Source: Shewanella putrefaciens (GTDB lineage Bacteria; Pseudomonadota; Gammaproteobacteria; Enterobacterales; Shewanellaceae). Taken from it: a stretch of DNA of 64,000 nucleotides. The notes under the pieces are model-generated. The model made no database searches. It was not told the DNA's origin and saw only the letters and a list, made by a program, of their open reading frames with translations. Position numbers and translations under genes: made by a program. The stretch covers positions 2,064,501 to 2,128,500 of the forward strand of contig NZ_CP066369.1 in assembly GCF_016406305.1 (NCBI RefSeq). Direction: 5' to 3'. Below, piece after piece: positions 24,774 through 36,332 of the stretch; the first letter of the stretch is position 1, and every line of letters begins with the position of its first letter.

Positions 24774-25028
24774 ATGCTTAAAATCAATATATTGGGGACG
24801 GGTTGTACAAAATGTCACACTCTCGCGGAAGCGACCGTGACGGCGGCCGATGCCCTTAATCTTGACTATCAATTAACGAAAATCACCGATATTGAACAAA
24901 TCATGGCTTACGGCGTTATGTCTACTCCCGCCTTGGTGATCGATGGGCAAGTTAAGTTAACTGGTCGCATTCCCAGCCAAGCCGAGATAAAGGATTTACT
25001 TAGCGCACACCTCAAGTCTTCAGTGTAG
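24774..25028 (+). CDS. Small thioredoxin-like protein (redox-active disulfide protein 2 type)
   Basis: Thioredoxin-fold protein of 84 residues with the active site TGCTKCHT and cis-proline segment VMSTPALVIDG. No signal peptide is present, so it works in the cytoplasm. It is three bases upstream of arsF. A paralogue lies at 33244 beside the second ArsP. In this setting it may reduce arsenic species or give electrons to the CcdA-like ArsG; both are inference. Confidence 0.87.
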   Translation: MLKINILGTGCTKCHTLAEATVTAADALNLDYQLTKITDIEQIMAYGVMSTPALVIDGQVKLTGRIPSQAEIKDLLSAHLKSSV

Positions 25029-25031
25029 GTA

Positions 25032-25517
25032 ATGGCTATGAATATAAAGAAAATTGTCAGTTTGCTACTGCTTGGCATTATTGGCTTAGGGATAGCGCTA
25101 GTAGGCTATCAAGAGTTTGTGACCTCGCCTGAGCAAACTCTCCCCCCTCAGGCGGCTGTCACTCCTCAACTCAAAAATGGGGTGGAAATTTATTACTTCC
25201 ATGGTAATCAGCGCTGTACTACCTGTATTCGCATGGAAAAATTTACTCAGGCTGCGGTGATGAACCACTTTTTTAAGGATGTGCGCGATGGGAACATGCG
25301 GTTAAGTTTAGTTAACGTGGATTTAGCGGAAAACGAACATTACATCGATGATTATCAACTCGTGTTTAGAACCGTGGTGATTGTCAATTTCCAAGATGGC
25401 GTGCAAACCGACTGGCGTCGCTTAGATAAGATTTGGGAGTTGGCCAATAATGAGGCCGCTTTTGAGCAATATGTTACCGATGAGATCGGGGCGATGCTAA
25501 GGTTGCGTCATGGATGA
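25032..25517 (+). CDS. arsF: ArsF-family membrane-anchored thioredoxin-like protein
   Basis: A 161-residue protein with one N-terminal membrane helix (residues 8-25) and a periplasmic domain carrying a CxxC, YFHGNQRCTTCIRMEKFT, as in ArsF proteins (labelled nitrophenyl compound nitroreductase subunit in databases). It ends eight bases inside the next gene, so the two are translationally coupled. ArsF and ArsG occur together in arsenic operons. The CxxC and the anchoring suggest a periplasmic redox partner of ArsG. Confidence 0.82.
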   Translation: MAMNIKKIVSLLLLGIIGLGIALVGYQEFVTSPEQTLPPQAAVTPQLKNGVEIYYFHGNQRCTTCIRMEKFTQAAVMNHFFKDVRDGNMRLSLVNVDLAENEHYIDDYQLVFRTVVIVNFQDGVQTDWRRLDKIWELANNEAAFEQYVTDEIGAMLRLRHG

Positions 25518-26214
25518 GTGGTCGGTTTTATTAATGTCAGCCTTTTGGTTTGGCATTTTAACCTCTATAAGTCCCTGTCCTTTGGCCACCAATGTGGCGG
25601 CCATTTCCTATATCAGTAAAGGGATACAATCGCCCTATCGGGTTGTGGGTACAGGGCTTGCTTACACTATAGGGCGCATGCTGAGTTATTTGGTGATTGG
25701 TGTGATATTGGTAGGCAGTTTGCTCTCGACAATGACATTATCAGTCGCGCTTCAGAAATATATGAACCTACTATTAGGTCCGATTTTGATATTGGTAGGG
25801 ATGTTTTTGCTGGAGTTATTGACGTTGCGTCTACCGGGTGATGGTGTCTTAATCGAAAAATTAAAGTCTAAAATTAACCCTCAGGGATATGTAGGAGCTT
25901 TACTGCTAGGGGTGTTATTTGCGCTGTCATTTTGTCCGACTTCTGCCGCGCTCTTCTTTGGTTCGCTGCTGCCGCTTGCACTAGAGTCACAATCGAGTAT
26001 TGCATTGCCAGCGATTTATGGCTTAGCGACTGGGTTGCCGGTTTTAGTCTTCGCCATTTTACTTGGGGTTAGCGCGCGTCGTGTCGCTAAAGCTTATAAC
26101 CATATTTTGGCATTTGAGCATTGGGCCAGAAAAATCACTGGCCTAGTGTTTATCATCATCGGTGGCTATTACGCTTGGGTGAATATTTTTAGTCCATTTA
26201 TGGGTGGAAATTAA
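25510..26214 (+). CDS. arsG: ArsG-family CcdA/DsbD-like membrane protein
   Basis: Polytopic inner-membrane protein of 234 residues with about six helices. It has the two CcdA-type cysteines, one in helix 1 (SISPCPLATNVAAI) and one in the fourth segment (ALSFCPTSAALFFG). Databases name the family an aromatic arsenical efflux permease. Its fold also fits the beta domain of DsbD, which moves reducing power across the membrane. It overlaps arsF by eight bases. Transport and electron transfer both remain possible. Confidence 0.83.
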   Translation: MDEWSVLLMSAFWFGILTSISPCPLATNVAAISYISKGIQSPYRVVGTGLAYTIGRMLSYLVIGVILVGSLLSTMTLSVALQKYMNLLLGPILILVGMFLLELLTLRLPGDGVLIEKLKSKINPQGYVGALLLGVLFALSFCPTSAALFFGSLLPLALESQSSIALPAIYGLATGLPVLVFAILLGVSARRVAKAYNHILAFEHWARKITGLVFIIIGGYYAWVNIFSPFMGGN

Positions 26215-29883: not shown

Positions 29884-29932
29884 TTTGTGTATTAGCTAAA
29901 GAGATAGGTTTGTGTATTAGCTAAAGAGATAG
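29884..29932. repeat. 25-bp-period tandem duplication across the arsP1 stop codon
   Basis: A 24-base unit starting TTTGTGTATTAGC is present at 29884-29907 and 29909-29932. The right copy encodes the last five codons and stop of arsP1; the left copy repeats them downstream. It is probably a slippage duplication. Confidence 0.9.
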
Positions 29933-30993
29933 CTATACAGAAACCCTGCGCCCACAGCCATGCCTAAAATAACGCTGAGAAATGCGGCAATCATCTGACC
30001 TTTAAAAATGGCTTTAAGTAATATGACTTCGGTCAAACTTGCTCCGGCACTCCCTATGATCAATGCCATTACTGAGCCCATCGCCATGCCTTTTTGGATT
30101 AACGCAGCGCTGAGTGGGATAACCGCTTCTGCGCGAATATAGAGTGGGATCCCAATTAATGCGGCAATGGGGATCGCATACCATGTGGCTTCTCCAGCAT
30201 ACTGAACGATTAACTCCGTTGGCATAAATCCGTAGATCATTGAACCCAATAGCACACCGATAAACAGATAGGGCTGCACTTGTTTGAAGTCCTTCCAAGT
30301 GGCGCGCCAAACCTTTACCCAGCGGCTCTGAGGTTTGTTTTGCGGCGCGGTTTGGGAAGGGCAACACGAAGTTGCAATAGGCTCAGCTTGAGTAGCGCAA
30401 CACAAGGTCACCGCGGGGGCGGTTTTACTATCACAACATGCGCTGACAATGGGTGCGGGGTTTACCTCGCAACCGCTACTCGCGGTCGGTGACGGTTTAG
30501 TATCGCAACATGAAGCAGCTGTGGCTGTATCTGCCTGAGCATAGGCCTCCTGACGTACATATTGTTCAAATCCGAGTTTTTCCAGCAAGTAACCTGCTAT
30601 TACGGATACGCCCAGAGCGACCGTAAAATAAAATAGCGCGACCTTAAACCCAAAGGTGACCACAAAAAGCCCGATAATCACCGGATTAAGTAATGGGCTG
30701 GCAAATAGGAATACCATCATAGGGCCAAATCCCGCACGGGCCCTGAGTAAACCTTTTAAGAATGGAATAGTGGAGCAGGAGCAAAAGGGGGTGATAGACC
30801 CAAGCAAGGCGGCCACTATATAGCCTCGACCATGGCGGGAACTTAATATGGATTGCACTTTTTGCGGGGTGATAAATTCTTGCAGCATACCGACGAGGTA
30901 GCTTATGGCAAGAAATAACAAGGTTAGCTCAAATGCAAGAAAGACGAACATATTGACCGTTTCTTTCAGCATAGTGATAGTTTCGGGAGTCAT
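29917..30993 (-). CDS. arsP: ArsP-type permease with repeated Cys-Cys loop
   Basis: Inner-membrane permease of 358 residues, family of ArsP organoarsenical exporters. The hallmark TPFCSCSTIPF is at 68-78, followed by ASPLLNPVIIGLF; the second half has GIPLYIRAEAVIPLSAALI. Between the halves, residues about 150-228 form a cytoplasmic loop with cysteines at 162-163, 175, 186-187, 198-199 and 210-211, a strict 12-residue period. Such a loop could bind trivalent arsenic or another soft metal before export. The gene is divergent from a second arsR and is followed by the glutathione synthetase gene. Confidence 0.88.
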   Translation of the reverse strand: MTPETITMLKETVNMFVFLAFELTLLFLAISYLVGMLQEFITPQKVQSILSSRHGRGYIVAALLGSITPFCSCSTIPFLKGLLRARAGFGPMMVFLFASPLLNPVIIGLFVVTFGFKVALFYFTVALGVSVIAGYLLEKLGFEQYVRQEAYAQADTATAASCCDTKPSPTASSGCEVNPAPIVSACCDSKTAPAVTLCCATQAEPIATSCCPSQTAPQNKPQSRWVKVWRATWKDFKQVQPYLFIGVLLGSMIYGFMPTELIVQYAGEATWYAIPIAALIGIPLYIRAEAVIPLSAALIQKGMAMGSVMALIIGSAGASLTEVILLKAIFKGQMIAAFLSVILGMAVGAGFLYSYLFS

Positions 30994-31019: not shown

Positions 31020-31035
31020 ATTATTCCGGAATAAT
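31020..31035. promoter_or_regulatory. Operator-like palindrome between arsP1 and arsR2
   Basis: ATTATTCCGGAATAAT is a perfect 16-base palindrome 27 bases upstream of the arsP1 start. A partial relative, TATTATCGAATAAC, lies near 31192 close to the divergent arsR start. These are probable sites of the ArsR at 31238. Confidence 0.6.
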
Positions 31036-31237: not shown

Positions 31238-31525
31238 ATGAATACAGAAAATGCAGCTAAAGTATTGAAGGAGCTAGGGCATCCCACTCGTCTTGCCCTA
31301 TTCAGAATATTGGTAAAAGGCGGCTATGGGGGCGTTGCCGTGGGGCAATTACAGGAAGCATTACAGATCCCAGGTTCAACACTCTCGCACCATATTAGCG
31401 CCTTAATGTCGGCCGGCATTATCTCCCAGCGGCGTGAGGGCAGAGTGTTATATTGCGTGCCTGACTATGAATTATTACAGGGACTGGTGCATTTTTTACA
31501 GGATCAATGTTGTAGTGAACAATGA
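31238..31525 (+). CDS. ArsR-family regulator, second of three
   Basis: Winged-helix repressor of 95 residues: KELGHPTRLALFRILVKGG, recognition helix GSTLSHHISALMSAGI, wing RREGRVLYCVPDY. It lacks the CVC motif of the other two ArsR proteins; its cysteines are in LYCV and the C-terminal DQCCSEQ, so the metal site must differ. It is divergent from arsP1, which it probably controls. Confidence 0.87.
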   Translation: MNTENAAKVLKELGHPTRLALFRILVKGGYGGVAVGQLQEALQIPGSTLSHHISALMSAGIISQRREGRVLYCVPDYELLQGLVHFLQDQCCSEQ

Positions 31526-32234: not shown

Positions 32235-33233
32235 ATGTTGCAACTATTTTCCGATTTAGCGAGCTGGTTAACCTTTGGGGTGATGGGCCTAGATCCCAAT
32301 ACTAAGCTTGCCGATGCGGTACATTTTTTTATTGAAGATACCACTAAGATTTTTGCACTCCTGTTGCTGATGATTTATGCCATCGCCTTGGTGCGGGCAT
32401 CGCTCAATGTTGAGCGGGTGCGGGATTACTTAGCGGGTAAAAATCGCTTTATTGGGTATTTTATGGGCTCTGGCTTCGGCGCTGTGACCCCATTCTGCTC
32501 ATGTTCGAGCATTCCGGTATTTTTAGGTTTTACCTCCGCGGGGATCCCTGTGGGGATCACTATGGCGTTTTTGATCACGTCACCGTTAATTAATGAAGTG
32601 GCCGTTCTGCTGCTGGTAAGTCTGCTGGGCTGGAAGTTCACAGTGATATACGTGTTGGTCGGTATGTCGGTGGGGATACTCGCTGGCGCCTTTTTAGACA
32701 CGATCCGCGCCGAACGTTGGTTGCAGTCCTTTGCCGCCAAAGCACTAGAGCAAGGTCAGGCGCAGGCGAGCCAAGATAATAGTGAGGGTATGACATCAAC
32801 ATCCATGACTTTAACCGAGCGACATAAGTTTGCAAAAGGCGAGACCCTAGAGATTTTTGGTCGAGTGTGGAAATGGGTCATTATCGGGGTAGGGCTTGGC
32901 GCCGCGCTTCATGGTTTTGTCCCCGATGGTTGGATTGAAGCACACCTTGGCGATGGTCAGTGGTGGTCGGTTCCTGCGGCGGTATTGATTGGTATTCCCT
33001 TGTATTCCAATGCGACAGGTGTCATCCCAATTATGGAAAGCCTTATTACTAACGGCCTTCCCATAGGCACGACATTGGCATTTTGTATGTCGACGGTGGC
33101 AGCGAGTTTCCCCGAATTTATCTTACTAAAGCAGGTGATGCAATGGCGCTTACTGGCCATCGTTTTTGCCATTTTGTTGATTGCATTCACCCTGATAGGG
33201 TGGATATTTAACGCTATCAGTCCCATGTTATGA
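32235..33233 (+). CDS. arsP: ArsP-type permease, second copy
   Basis: Permease of 332 residues, related to the one at 29917 but without its cysteine-rich loop. Motifs: TPFCSCSSIPVFLGF in the first half, TSPLINEVAVLL next, and GIPLYSNATGVIPIMESLI in the second. ArsP members export trivalent organoarsenicals such as methylarsenite in characterised cases. The loop here is short and acidic to polar (about 175-200). It starts an operon with a thioredoxin-like protein, a phosphatase, GAPDH and ArsJ. Confidence 0.88.
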   Translation: MLQLFSDLASWLTFGVMGLDPNTKLADAVHFFIEDTTKIFALLLLMIYAIALVRASLNVERVRDYLAGKNRFIGYFMGSGFGAVTPFCSCSSIPVFLGFTSAGIPVGITMAFLITSPLINEVAVLLLVSLLGWKFTVIYVLVGMSVGILAGAFLDTIRAERWLQSFAAKALEQGQAQASQDNSEGMTSTSMTLTERHKFAKGETLEIFGRVWKWVIIGVGLGAALHGFVPDGWIEAHLGDGQWWSVPAAVLIGIPLYSNATGVIPIMESLITNGLPIGTTLAFCMSTVAASFPEFILLKQVMQWRLLAIVFAILLIAFTLIGWIFNAISPML

Positions 33234-33486: not shown

Positions 33487-33978
33487 ATGTCACATCCAGT
33501 TGATATTTTGTCTTTAGACAGTGGTGCTCGCTTAATTTTCACCCCTTGTCCTGGGACTAAATCTGCCCCTGTAGCAGAGGCGGTGGCGACACTTAAAGCG
33601 GCGGGGACTGAAGTTATCATCACCCTGATGCCGCTTGGTGAATTGCACACCTTTGGCGCCACCTCATTACCTGATATTTGCCGTGAAACGGGGATCCGTT
33701 GGCTGCATTTACCTATAGAAGACGATGCGTCGCCCGCAGAGGAGTTTGAGTTAGCCTTTGCAAAGCACAGGGCAGAGCTACTTGCCTTGATGCAAAACAA
33801 AGCGACGATTGCGATTCATTGCCGTGGTGGTTCAGGGCGCACGGGATTAATGGCGGCAATTCTGTTGTTACTAGCGGGAGGCTCCTTGAGTGAAGTGATT
33901 ACCCAAGTGCAATCGATTCGTCCTAACGCCTTAACTAATGCGCATCAGCGCGGCTATATCGACCAGTTAACGCTTTAG
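33487..33978 (+). CDS. HCX5R protein-tyrosine-phosphatase-like protein
   Basis: Cysteine phosphatase of 163 residues related to CDKN3-type dual-specificity phosphatases. The P-loop IHCRGGSGRTG has nucleophile Cys112 and Arg118; the general-acid region is probably LPIEDDASP (75-83). It has no signal peptide. In this operon it may act on an arsenate or phosphate ester, or on a protein; the natural substrate is not known. It stands between the thioredoxin-like gene and the GAPDH gene. Confidence 0.8.
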   Translation: MSHPVDILSLDSGARLIFTPCPGTKSAPVAEAVATLKAAGTEVIITLMPLGELHTFGATSLPDICRETGIRWLHLPIEDDASPAEEFELAFAKHRAELLALMQNKATIAIHCRGGSGRTGLMAAILLLLAGGSLSEVITQVQSIRPNALTNAHQRGYIDQLTL

Positions 33979-34053
33979 CATAAGAGTAACGCTTTAATCT
34001 TAAACAAATAATATCAAAAAGATACGATAAAACTGAGTGTGAAGGAAACAGGT

Positions 34054-35064
34054 ATGACAATCAAAATTGGGATCAATGGCTTTGGCCGTATGGGACGTTT
34101 AGCGCTGCGCGCCGCTTGGGGCTGGAATGACGTCGAATTTGTGCAAATTAACGATCCCGCAGGGGATGCACCGACCTTAGCCCATCTGCTGACATTCGAT
34201 TCTGTGCATGGCCGTTGGCAGCATGAGGCGAACAGTGAGTGTGATGACATCATTATCGATGGCAAGCGGATTCGTTGTACGCGCAATAAAACCATCGCCG
34301 AAACCGATTGGTCCGCCTGCGATGTGGTGATTGAAGCTTCGGGTAAGATGAAAACCAAAGCTGTGCTGCAAGCTTATTTAGATCAAGGTGTTAAACGCGT
34401 TGTGGTCACGGCGCCCGTTAAGGAAGAGGGTGTGTTAAACGTTGTCATGGGGGTGAATCATCAGCTCTATGATAAAGCCATTCATCCGATTGTGACGGCG
34501 GCTTCCTGTACCACTAACTGTTTGGCGCCAATTGTTAAAGTCATCCATGAAAACCTCGGCATAGTGCATGGTTCCATGACGACCATTCACGATATTACCA
34601 ACACTCAAACGATTTTAGATGCACCGCACAAAGATCTTCGCCGTGCGCGGGCCTGTGGTTTAAGCCTCATCCCCACGACGACGGGCTCAGCGACGGCCAT
34701 TACTCATATTTTCCCTGAACTCAAAGGCAAGCTAAACGGCCATGCGGTGCGTGTACCGCTGGCAAATGCATCTTTAACCGACTGTGTATTTGAGGTGAGT
34801 CGTAAAACCACCGAGGCAGAGGTCAATCGCCTGTTAAAAGAGGCCGCAGAAGGGCCATTAAAAGGCATTTTAGGTTATGAGGAACGGCCGTTAGTGTCGG
34901 TGGATTATAAAACCGATCCCCGTTCGAGCATTATTGATGCACTATCGACCATGATCATCAATGGCACTCAGGTCAAACTCTACGCTTGGTATGATAATGA
35001 GTGGGGTTATGCTAACCGTGCGGCCGAGCTTGCCCGTATGGTCGGTCTGATGGATAAGGCATAA
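34054..35064 (+). CDS. ArsJ-associated glyceraldehyde-3-phosphate dehydrogenase
   Basis: GAPDH paralogue of 336 residues that uses arsenate in place of phosphate, making 1-arseno-3-phosphoglycerate for export by Ars[17 protein letters not shown] is the NAD-binding motif; Cys152 in [11 protein letters not shown] and His179 are catalytic. ATG 34054 lies seven bases after AAGGA; the ATG at 34039 is rejected. It is followed by arsJ after 23 bases. This is a second arsenate defence besides ArsC/ArsB. Confidence 0.93.
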
Positions 35065-35087
35065 GCTTTGATATTTAAAGGGATACT

Positions 35088-36332
35088 ATGGCTAACCTGA
35101 CAGGGTTCTTGTCCAACTTATCACCCGAAATTCGCCAGTATTTAATGATCACTGGCAATTATTGGGCCTTCACGCTTACCGACGGCGCACTGCGTATGTT
35201 AGTGGTGCTCCATTTTCATGGCTTAGGTTATAGCCCGCTGCAAATTGCGATGTTATTCCTTTTTTATGAAGTGTTCGGGGTGGTTACAAACTTAGTCGGT
35301 GGTTGGCTCGGGGCGCGTCTAGGCTTAAATAAGACCATGAATATTGGTCTGTTTATGCAGATTGTCGCCCTTAGCATGCTGCTCGTGCCTAGCGGTATGC
35401 TCACGGTTGCTTGGGTGATGGCGGCGCAGGCCTTGTCGGGTATTGCTAAAGATCTCAATAAAATGAGCGCCAAAAGCAGTATTAAGTTGTTGGTGCCTAA
35501 GGATGCCCAGGGGGAGTTGTATAAGTGGGTTGCTATGCTCACCGGATCCAAAAATGCCCTAAAGGGTGCGGGGTTCTTCTTGGGCGGTGCCTTGCTGACG
35601 ATGTTTGGTTTTCAACAGGCTGTGCTAGGCATGGCGATGGGTCTATTGCTGGTGTGGATTTTTAGTCTGTTAAGTTTGCGGCGCGACTTAGGCAAGGCCA
35701 AAAACAAACCTAAGTTTACCGAAATTTTCTCTAAGAGTTCGGCGGTAAACACGCTTTCAGCCGCGCGCATGTTTTTATTTGGCGCGCGGGATGTCTGGTT
35801 TGTGGTGGCTTTACCTGTGTATTTGGCCTCGACCTTTGCTTGGGATCACTGGTATGTCGGCGGTTTTCTCGCACTCTGGGTGATAGGCTACGGTATAGTG
35901 CAAGCCTTTGCGCCCCGATTGACGGGAACAAAGTCTGTGGGCAGAAACAAGGTTCCCGATGGACGTAGCGCCTTAGGTTGGGCGGCGATATTGAGCATAG
36001 TGCCTGTATTGATTGCCTTAGCGCTAACCTATGATTTCCATGCCGCTAACGTGTTGGTGTGGGGATTAATGCTCTTTGGCGCCTTATTTGCCATCAACTC
36101 CTCATTACACAGCTATCTTATCGTCAGTTATGCCGATGAAGATGGCGTGTCCTTGGATGTCGGCTTCTATTACATGGCCAATGCCATGGGGCGCTTGATT
36201 GGCACTGTGCTGTCTGGCTGGGTATATCAAGTGCATGGCATGGCGGCGTGCCTGTGGATTTCGGCGGCATTTATTGGGTTAGCGGCACTTATCTCCATTA
36301 AACTGCCAAGGCACTCTGTGGCTGGCACTTAG
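35088..36332 (+). CDS. arsJ: ArsJ, organoarsenical (1-arseno-3-phosphoglycerate) exporter
   Basis: MFS transporter of 414 residues with about 11-12 helices that exports the arsenoester made by the upstream GAPDH; the ester then breaks down outside and releases arsenate. The N-terminal part reads YLMITGNYWAFTLTDGALRML, and SGIAKDLNKMSAKSSIK is a conserved loop after helix 4. It is the last gene of the operon; an intrinsic terminator begins 53 bases downstream. With the two genes' pairing the assignment is strong. Confidence 0.94.
   Translation: MANLTGFLSNLSPEIRQYLMITGNYWAFTLTDGALRMLVVLHFHGLGYSPLQIAMLFLFYEVFGVVTNLVGGWLGARLGLNKTMNIGLFMQIVALSMLLVPSGMLTVAWVMAAQALSGIAKDLNKMSAKSSIKLLVPKDAQGELYKWVAMLTGSKNALKGAGFFLGGALLTMFGFQQAVLGMAMGLLLVWIFSLLSLRRDLGKAKNKPKFTEIFSKSSAVNTLSAARMFLFGARDVWFVVALPVYLASTFAWDHWYVGGFLALWVIGYGIVQAFAPRLTGTKSVGRNKVPDGRSALGWAAILSIVPVLIALALTYDFHAANVLVWGLMLFGALFAINSSLHSYLIVSYADEDGVSLDVGFYYMANAMGRLIGTVLSGWVYQVHGMAACLWISAAFIGLAALISIKLPRHSVAGT

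Follow-up and report, generated by a model that had tools for sequence, protein, structure and literature searches.

In a cytosol rich in glutathione, toxic metal(loid)s are scarce, and how exporters find them is an open question. An ars island of Shewanella putrefaciens gives this question a specific form. A permease gene of the ArsP_1 family (ArsP1; 29917-30993, minus strand, 358 amino acids, PF03773) encodes a cysteine-rich linker that joins the two membrane halves of the protein (30313-30540, minus strand, residues 152-227), and the cysteine region of this loop extends over 30361-30510 on the minus strand. All positions refer to the window, which is the whole stretch of 64,000 nucleotides of contig NZ_CP066369.1 that was analyzed. 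A preliminary description of this DNA had read the loop as a tandem-repeat, metal-binding tether that could collect As(III) or another soft metal. What, then, would such a loop do in an ArsP permease, and which substrate would it serve?

Family Assignment and Predicted Structure of ArsP1

ArsP1 belongs to the ArsP_1 family, as it scores 191 bits against PF03773 (Pfam gathering cut-off 32.3) and its first membrane half contains the C(S/T)C motif in the form TPFCSCS. The two cysteines of this CSC motif (30775-30783, minus strand, residues 71-73), C71 and C73, are unchanged in all 41 aligned ArsP proteins. At a finer level, ArsP1 remains below every equivalog and subfamily cut-off of NCBIfam that was tried, including those of the SaoE efflux transporter (NF040736; 95.8 versus 325), an arsenic efflux protein (NF037962; 36.9 versus 100), and the SO_0444 family (NF033936; 119.9 bits versus 300). 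Judged by its sequence, ArsP1 probably is a membrane exporter with organic arsenic as substrate.

An AlphaFold2 model based on 41 sequences is confident for the membrane halves (mean pLDDT 78.7, pTM 0.73) and locates C71 and C73 at a helix break at residues 67-72. At residues 156-215, which make up the cysteine region, pLDDT is below 50, and the loop is predicted to be disordered between two four-helix halves. No solved structure related to ArsP1 by sequence or fold was found. Positive charges lie beside the loop at residues 220-237 (K220, R224, K227, R230, K234, and K237); further positive charges are on loops of uncertain membrane side. Taken by themselves, the flanking charges favor a cytoplasmic position of the loop according to the positive-inside rule.

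ArsP1 shares the four-helix repeats and the C(S/T)C motif with the ArsP family at large (PF03773, TC 2.A.119), including ArsP of Campylobacter jejuni. For this family, excerpts of two papers describe the C(S/T)C motif and a layout of two four-helix repeats, which are connected by a hydrophilic loop that differs in size between proteins (PMC7176098, PMC4435449). In contrast to what is seen in ArsP1, these excerpts contain no mention of a cysteine-rich linker. A published account of such an ArsP loop was not found in the literature searched, which misses most subscription journals, and the feature looks undescribed for the ArsP family.

The Cysteine Repeat of ArsP1

The cysteines of ArsP1 are residues 71, 73, 162, 163, 175, 186, 187, 198, 199, 210, and 211. 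The last nine fall into five units of exactly 12 residues each, all encoded on the minus strand: CCDTKPSPTASS (30475-30510, residues 162-173), GCEVNPAPIVSA (30439-30474, residues 174-185), CCDSKTAPAVTL (30403-30438, residues 186-197), CCATQAEPIATS (30367-30402, residues 198-209), and CCPSQTAPQNKP (30331-30366, residues 210-221). The second cysteine of each unit (163, 175, 187, 199, and 211) recurs at a spacing of exactly 12, and unit 2 has GC in place of CC. Six Cys-Cys coincidences were counted at lag 12. A count of six at any lag between 6 and 24 was reached once in 50,000 free shuffles and 46 times in 50,000 shuffles with intact CC pairs. The 12-residue periodicity with one GC unit, as reported in the preliminary description, is thus confirmed at the residues given and exceeds chance. 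Histidine is absent from the loop.

In the nucleotide sequence, the repeat has decayed. TRF detected no tandem array within the loop DNA, which contains 15-nt core repeats at distances of 36, 36, and 72 nt. In a whole-genome pattern search, three TGYTGY words at 36-nt spacing were found in the ArsP1 loop only; this search is informative for the home genome alone, because most matches in other genomes are out-of-frame repeats of the CTG/GCT type. A perfect 25-bp tandem duplication is located at 29884-29932, across the stop codon of the permease gene. The second ArsP (32235-33233, plus strand), which was used for comparison, had been said to lack the loop. This was incorrect, as about 50 amino acids, with zero cysteines, form a central linker in this protein.

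Variation of the Loop among Homologs

The homolog sample consisted of the 80 nearest homologous loci (65-98% identity) in one-per-species genomes of Shewanella, Vibrio, Photobacterium, Enterovibrio, Ferrimonas, Psychromonas, and Marinobacterium. All 80 encode a cysteine-rich loop, which comprises 53-113 amino acids with 5-14 cysteines and 0-7 CC pairs. Over the whole sample, cysteine accounts for 10% of the loop residues, and 73 of the 80 loops have no histidine. The best cysteine lag ranges from 6 to 23, with 13 being the commonest value. The lag of 12 is common to an eight-row Shewanella clade that includes the window gene (SH-aLRT 99%), and recurs in G534, a distant relative with 56% core identity whose sister genomes show lags of 15-16 or none. 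A family-wide 12-residue period is therefore rejected: the strict period is clade-specific, and the conserved trait is the richness in cysteine. The preliminary description had made its proposal depend on a cysteine period conserved among homologs; measured against these loci the period fails, and the cysteines pass.

The number of repeat units, which had been suggested as a point of comparison, does vary. L010 encodes seven CC pairs and L122 four, with nearly identical membrane cores. A 36-bp array is visible in L170 (the L010 locus from another genome set), and the loop of Ferrimonas aestuarii is built from a different unit, 42 bp long and present in four copies. The best explanation of the 12-residue spacing is that it represents the footprint of the latest duplications and no structural requirement.

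Other relatives have short loops of 28-42 amino acids with typically 2-3 cysteines (one has a single cysteine), usually in a CGxxCG arrangement, and their dithiol form is CxxxC. In quick trees with SH-aLRT support values, one branch (SH-aLRT 99) divides long from short loops in the main set, and a plasmid clade and G534 are additional, separate long-loop lineages. Among ArsP_1 proteins sampled across the phylum outside the ArsP1 group and SO_0444, the large majority has no cysteine in the linker.

Selection on the Loop Cysteines

The loop cysteines are under purifying selection. At the residue level, 22 disjoint close pairs of loops kept 167 of 184 cysteine columns and 1298 of 1563 other columns (p = 0.006); permutation within pairs gave an expectation of 152.8 kept cysteine columns (sd 4.4). 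At the codon level, counted over 21 of these pairs, with equal loop lengths and uncorrected for transition bias, loop cysteine codons had undergone 11 replacement and 30 silent changes, as compared to 130 replacement and 41 silent changes at the other two-fold residues of the loops (odds ratio 0.12, p = 1.2e-8). The pair L025/L140 was omitted from this codon test, as the alignment looked unreliable despite loops of equal length. It follows from the codon contrast that selection keeps cysteine within an otherwise drifting loop.

Partner Regulator and Putative Substrate

Divergent from the permease gene lies a gene for an ArsR-type repressor (ArsR1; 31238-31525, plus strand). Its product contains the motif C-x17-CC, with CC at residues 91-92, and the C-terminal SEQ is free of cysteine. 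According to secondary accounts, SpArsR of S. putrefaciens 200 is specific for MAs(III), has Cys101/102, and lacks the third cysteine of AfArsR (PMC13236881, PMC11868830). Compared by way of this published description, ArsR1 equals SpArsR in having C-x17-CC and no third cysteine. A vicinal cysteine pair suits a two-coordinate arsenical such as MAs(III), which requires just two ligands according to PMC11868830. The ArsR1 cluster adjoins only 43 of the 80 homologous permease loci, and all 47 paired ArsRs (43 beside these loci, one in the window, and three on plasmids) share C-x17-CC. The ArsR ortholog beside L007 has 105 residues and cysteines 83, 101, and 102, which are the residue numbers of SpArsR as known from its description. 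Chen, Nadar and Rosen (2017) reportedly named Cys83 and Cys101, and are said to have linked SpArsR orthologs to arsP.

An SpArsR-like partner favors methylarsenite over inorganic As(III), and trivalent organoarsenicals such as methylarsenite are, as far as the sequences indicate, the most likely substrate of ArsP1. In 32 of the 47 ArsRs, including many Vibrio copies, an additional cysteine follows the CC pair, and hence the inducer may be broader or different there, for example in Vibrio. A 16-bp perfect palindrome, ATTATTCCGGAATAAT, is located near the permease start (31020-31035), and palindromes similar to TATTTCGATATTTATCGAAATA occur upstream of many Vibrio copies; these are candidate ArsR operators.

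Genomic Neighborhood and Mobile Copies

Directly downstream of the permease gene, a eukaryotic-type glutathione synthase is encoded (PF03917, PF03199; 28278-29867, minus strand). A homolog adjoins the permease gene in 7 of the 80 loci, in Shewanella, Psychromonas, and Vibrio, and a role of this neighbor in thiol supply is possible. The same island contains arsE, arsF, and arsG (24774-26214, plus strand; NCBIfam matches), a set named for aromatic arsenicals. A GAPDH gene followed by a gene for an MFS transporter is found at 34039-36332 on the plus strand, an order that presumably corresponds to the arrangement of the GAPDH-ArsJ pair for arsenate detoxification. Between arsP2 and the GAPDH gene lies a gene for a protein resembling dual-specificity phosphatases (33487-33978, plus strand), which is conserved in L006-L008. 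In about 22 loci within L019-L082, mostly from Vibrio, a sigma-factor-like gene is situated beside arsR and upstream of the permease gene.

The pair of ArsR and a permease with a cysteine-rich loop also occurs on plasmids, where it adjoins an ISL3-family transposase gene (L116, L117, and L121). The hosts are E. coli, Salmonella, and Klebsiella, and the isolate sources include poultry and swine. At least 80% of the three-gene unit of L117 was found in 109 plasmid records, and a Shewanella genome carries a near-identical copy of the plasmid ArsR-permease pair (L167). With such ISL3-type copies on plasmids of poultry and swine isolates, the substrate range is also of practical interest.

Possible Function of the Loop

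Since cysteine is kept while the rest of the loop reshuffles, the most likely role of the loop is to bind soft metals and feed them to the pump. In the reading toward which we lean, if only slightly beyond an even balance, it is a thiol tether, tuned by its repeats, by which soft metal(loid)s are captured for the CSC site. The linker would offer closely spaced dithiols, as CC or, in the short-loop relatives, as CxxxC. These dithiols would catch the substrate on the presumed cytoplasmic side, thiol exchange might hand it over to the intramembrane CSC site, and the substrate, possibly methylarsenite, would be exported from there. Selection would then target the number of thiols and the presence of dithiols and not their exact position, so that spacers drift and tandem duplication adds or removes units. 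The metal-binding tether of the preliminary description, for a soft metal, is favored by the selected cysteines, the predicted disorder, and the SpArsR-like partner. Its choice of ligand needs correction in one respect, in that ArsR1 points to methylarsenite more than to inorganic As(III).

Related solutions are known from other proteins. The closest functional parallel appears to be the His-loop between TM4 and TM5 of ZnT transporters, which varies in length and histidine number and recruits zinc to the membrane site (PMC10932157). The likeness would be functional only, because ArsP1 is an ArsP_1 protein by Pfam and its loop is devoid of histidine; the ZnT/CDF transporters are an unrelated family, handle other metals, and use histidine instead of cysteine. 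The metallochaperone ArsD also is an arsenic-handling protein with vicinal cysteine pairs (PMC4562236). It differs from ArsP1 in being a soluble chaperone and repressor, and no homology is claimed.

The main rival to capture is that the loop acts as a sensor or gate, where cysteine-bound metal would alter the transport rate or protein turnover and no substrate would be delivered. By analogy, this gains from the His-loop of plant MTP1, which titles cited in PMC10932157 report to be a cytosolic zinc sensor whose deletion stimulated transport, and the variable loop length and cysteine positions would suit a graded sensor. Short-loop orthologs with 2-3 cysteines are widely retained, however, and a working pump therefore does not need the long loop; gating is still compatible with this, and we regard it as unlikely, though deserving serious attention. 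A little less probable, in our judgment, is the export of Cu(I), Zn(II), or Cd(II), with a loop that binds these metals. Such a role is suggested by the third ArsP_1 protein of the genome, which is a member of SO_0444 (525 bits versus the cut-off of 300, 506 amino acids). It has six CC pairs in its linker and an adjacent ZntR gene, and mutants in SO_0444 were sensitive to zinc and copper in fitness data (PMC3219624). SO_0444 proteins share with ArsP1 the Pfam fold family and a long central linker, which has repeated SCC units in copies from Shewanella and other Alteromonadales; other sampled SO_0444-like copies contain 2-5 CC pairs. Yet ArsP1 and SO_0444 have 30% identity, ArsP1 falls far short of the SO_0444 cut-off, and it is linked not to ZntR but to a regulator of the ArsR type with the SpArsR signature, within an ars island. 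As CC loops also occur in SO_0444, the metal cannot be read from a thiol loop by itself, and such loops are not arsenic-specific. Considering also the cysteine-free linkers of most other ArsP_1 proteins, the loop tracks the export of thiophilic metals in general.

The two remaining explanations dispense with metal capture altogether. Disulfides, or another structural or redox role of the loop cysteines, possibly in the periplasm, would agree with the even cysteine numbers that are common among the loops, and the topology is a predicted one. The positive charges flanking the loop argue against this, and cysteine positions and numbers that vary freely among relatives are a poor fit to a defined set of disulfides, so that we consider it very improbable. 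Least credible of all is that the loop is neutral low-complexity sequence, generated by replication slippage and functionless. Tandem arrays are indeed visible in relatives, and the loop evolves faster than the core: compared to ANA-3, 4 of 82 loop residues and 2 of 276 core residues differ in the window gene. Nevertheless, the cysteine codons are strongly constrained and their neighbors are not, cysteine richness is retained across species whose loops cannot be aligned, and the neutral origin is rejected by the codon test.

If capture by the loop is indeed its function, the principle may extend beyond ArsP1. Bacterial metal(loid) exporters of the ArsP superfamily might carry disordered "thiol antennae" of cysteine pairs, with unit numbers adjusted through tandem duplication, which would have arisen several times and would set the capture of the substrate; we advance this tentatively, with confidence somewhat short of an even balance. 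The same tentative reading would place the origins in the marine ArsP clade, the plasmid ISL3 clade, an Aeromonas-like lineage, and the SO_0444 family, and would let capture capacity be set independently of the membrane pore. As a capturing tether, the loop of ArsP1 would be a cysteine counterpart to the histidine loops of zinc transporters, and the natural variants with 1-14 cysteines on a nearly identical core would provide a ready series for studying capture, selectivity, and tuning by repeat number.
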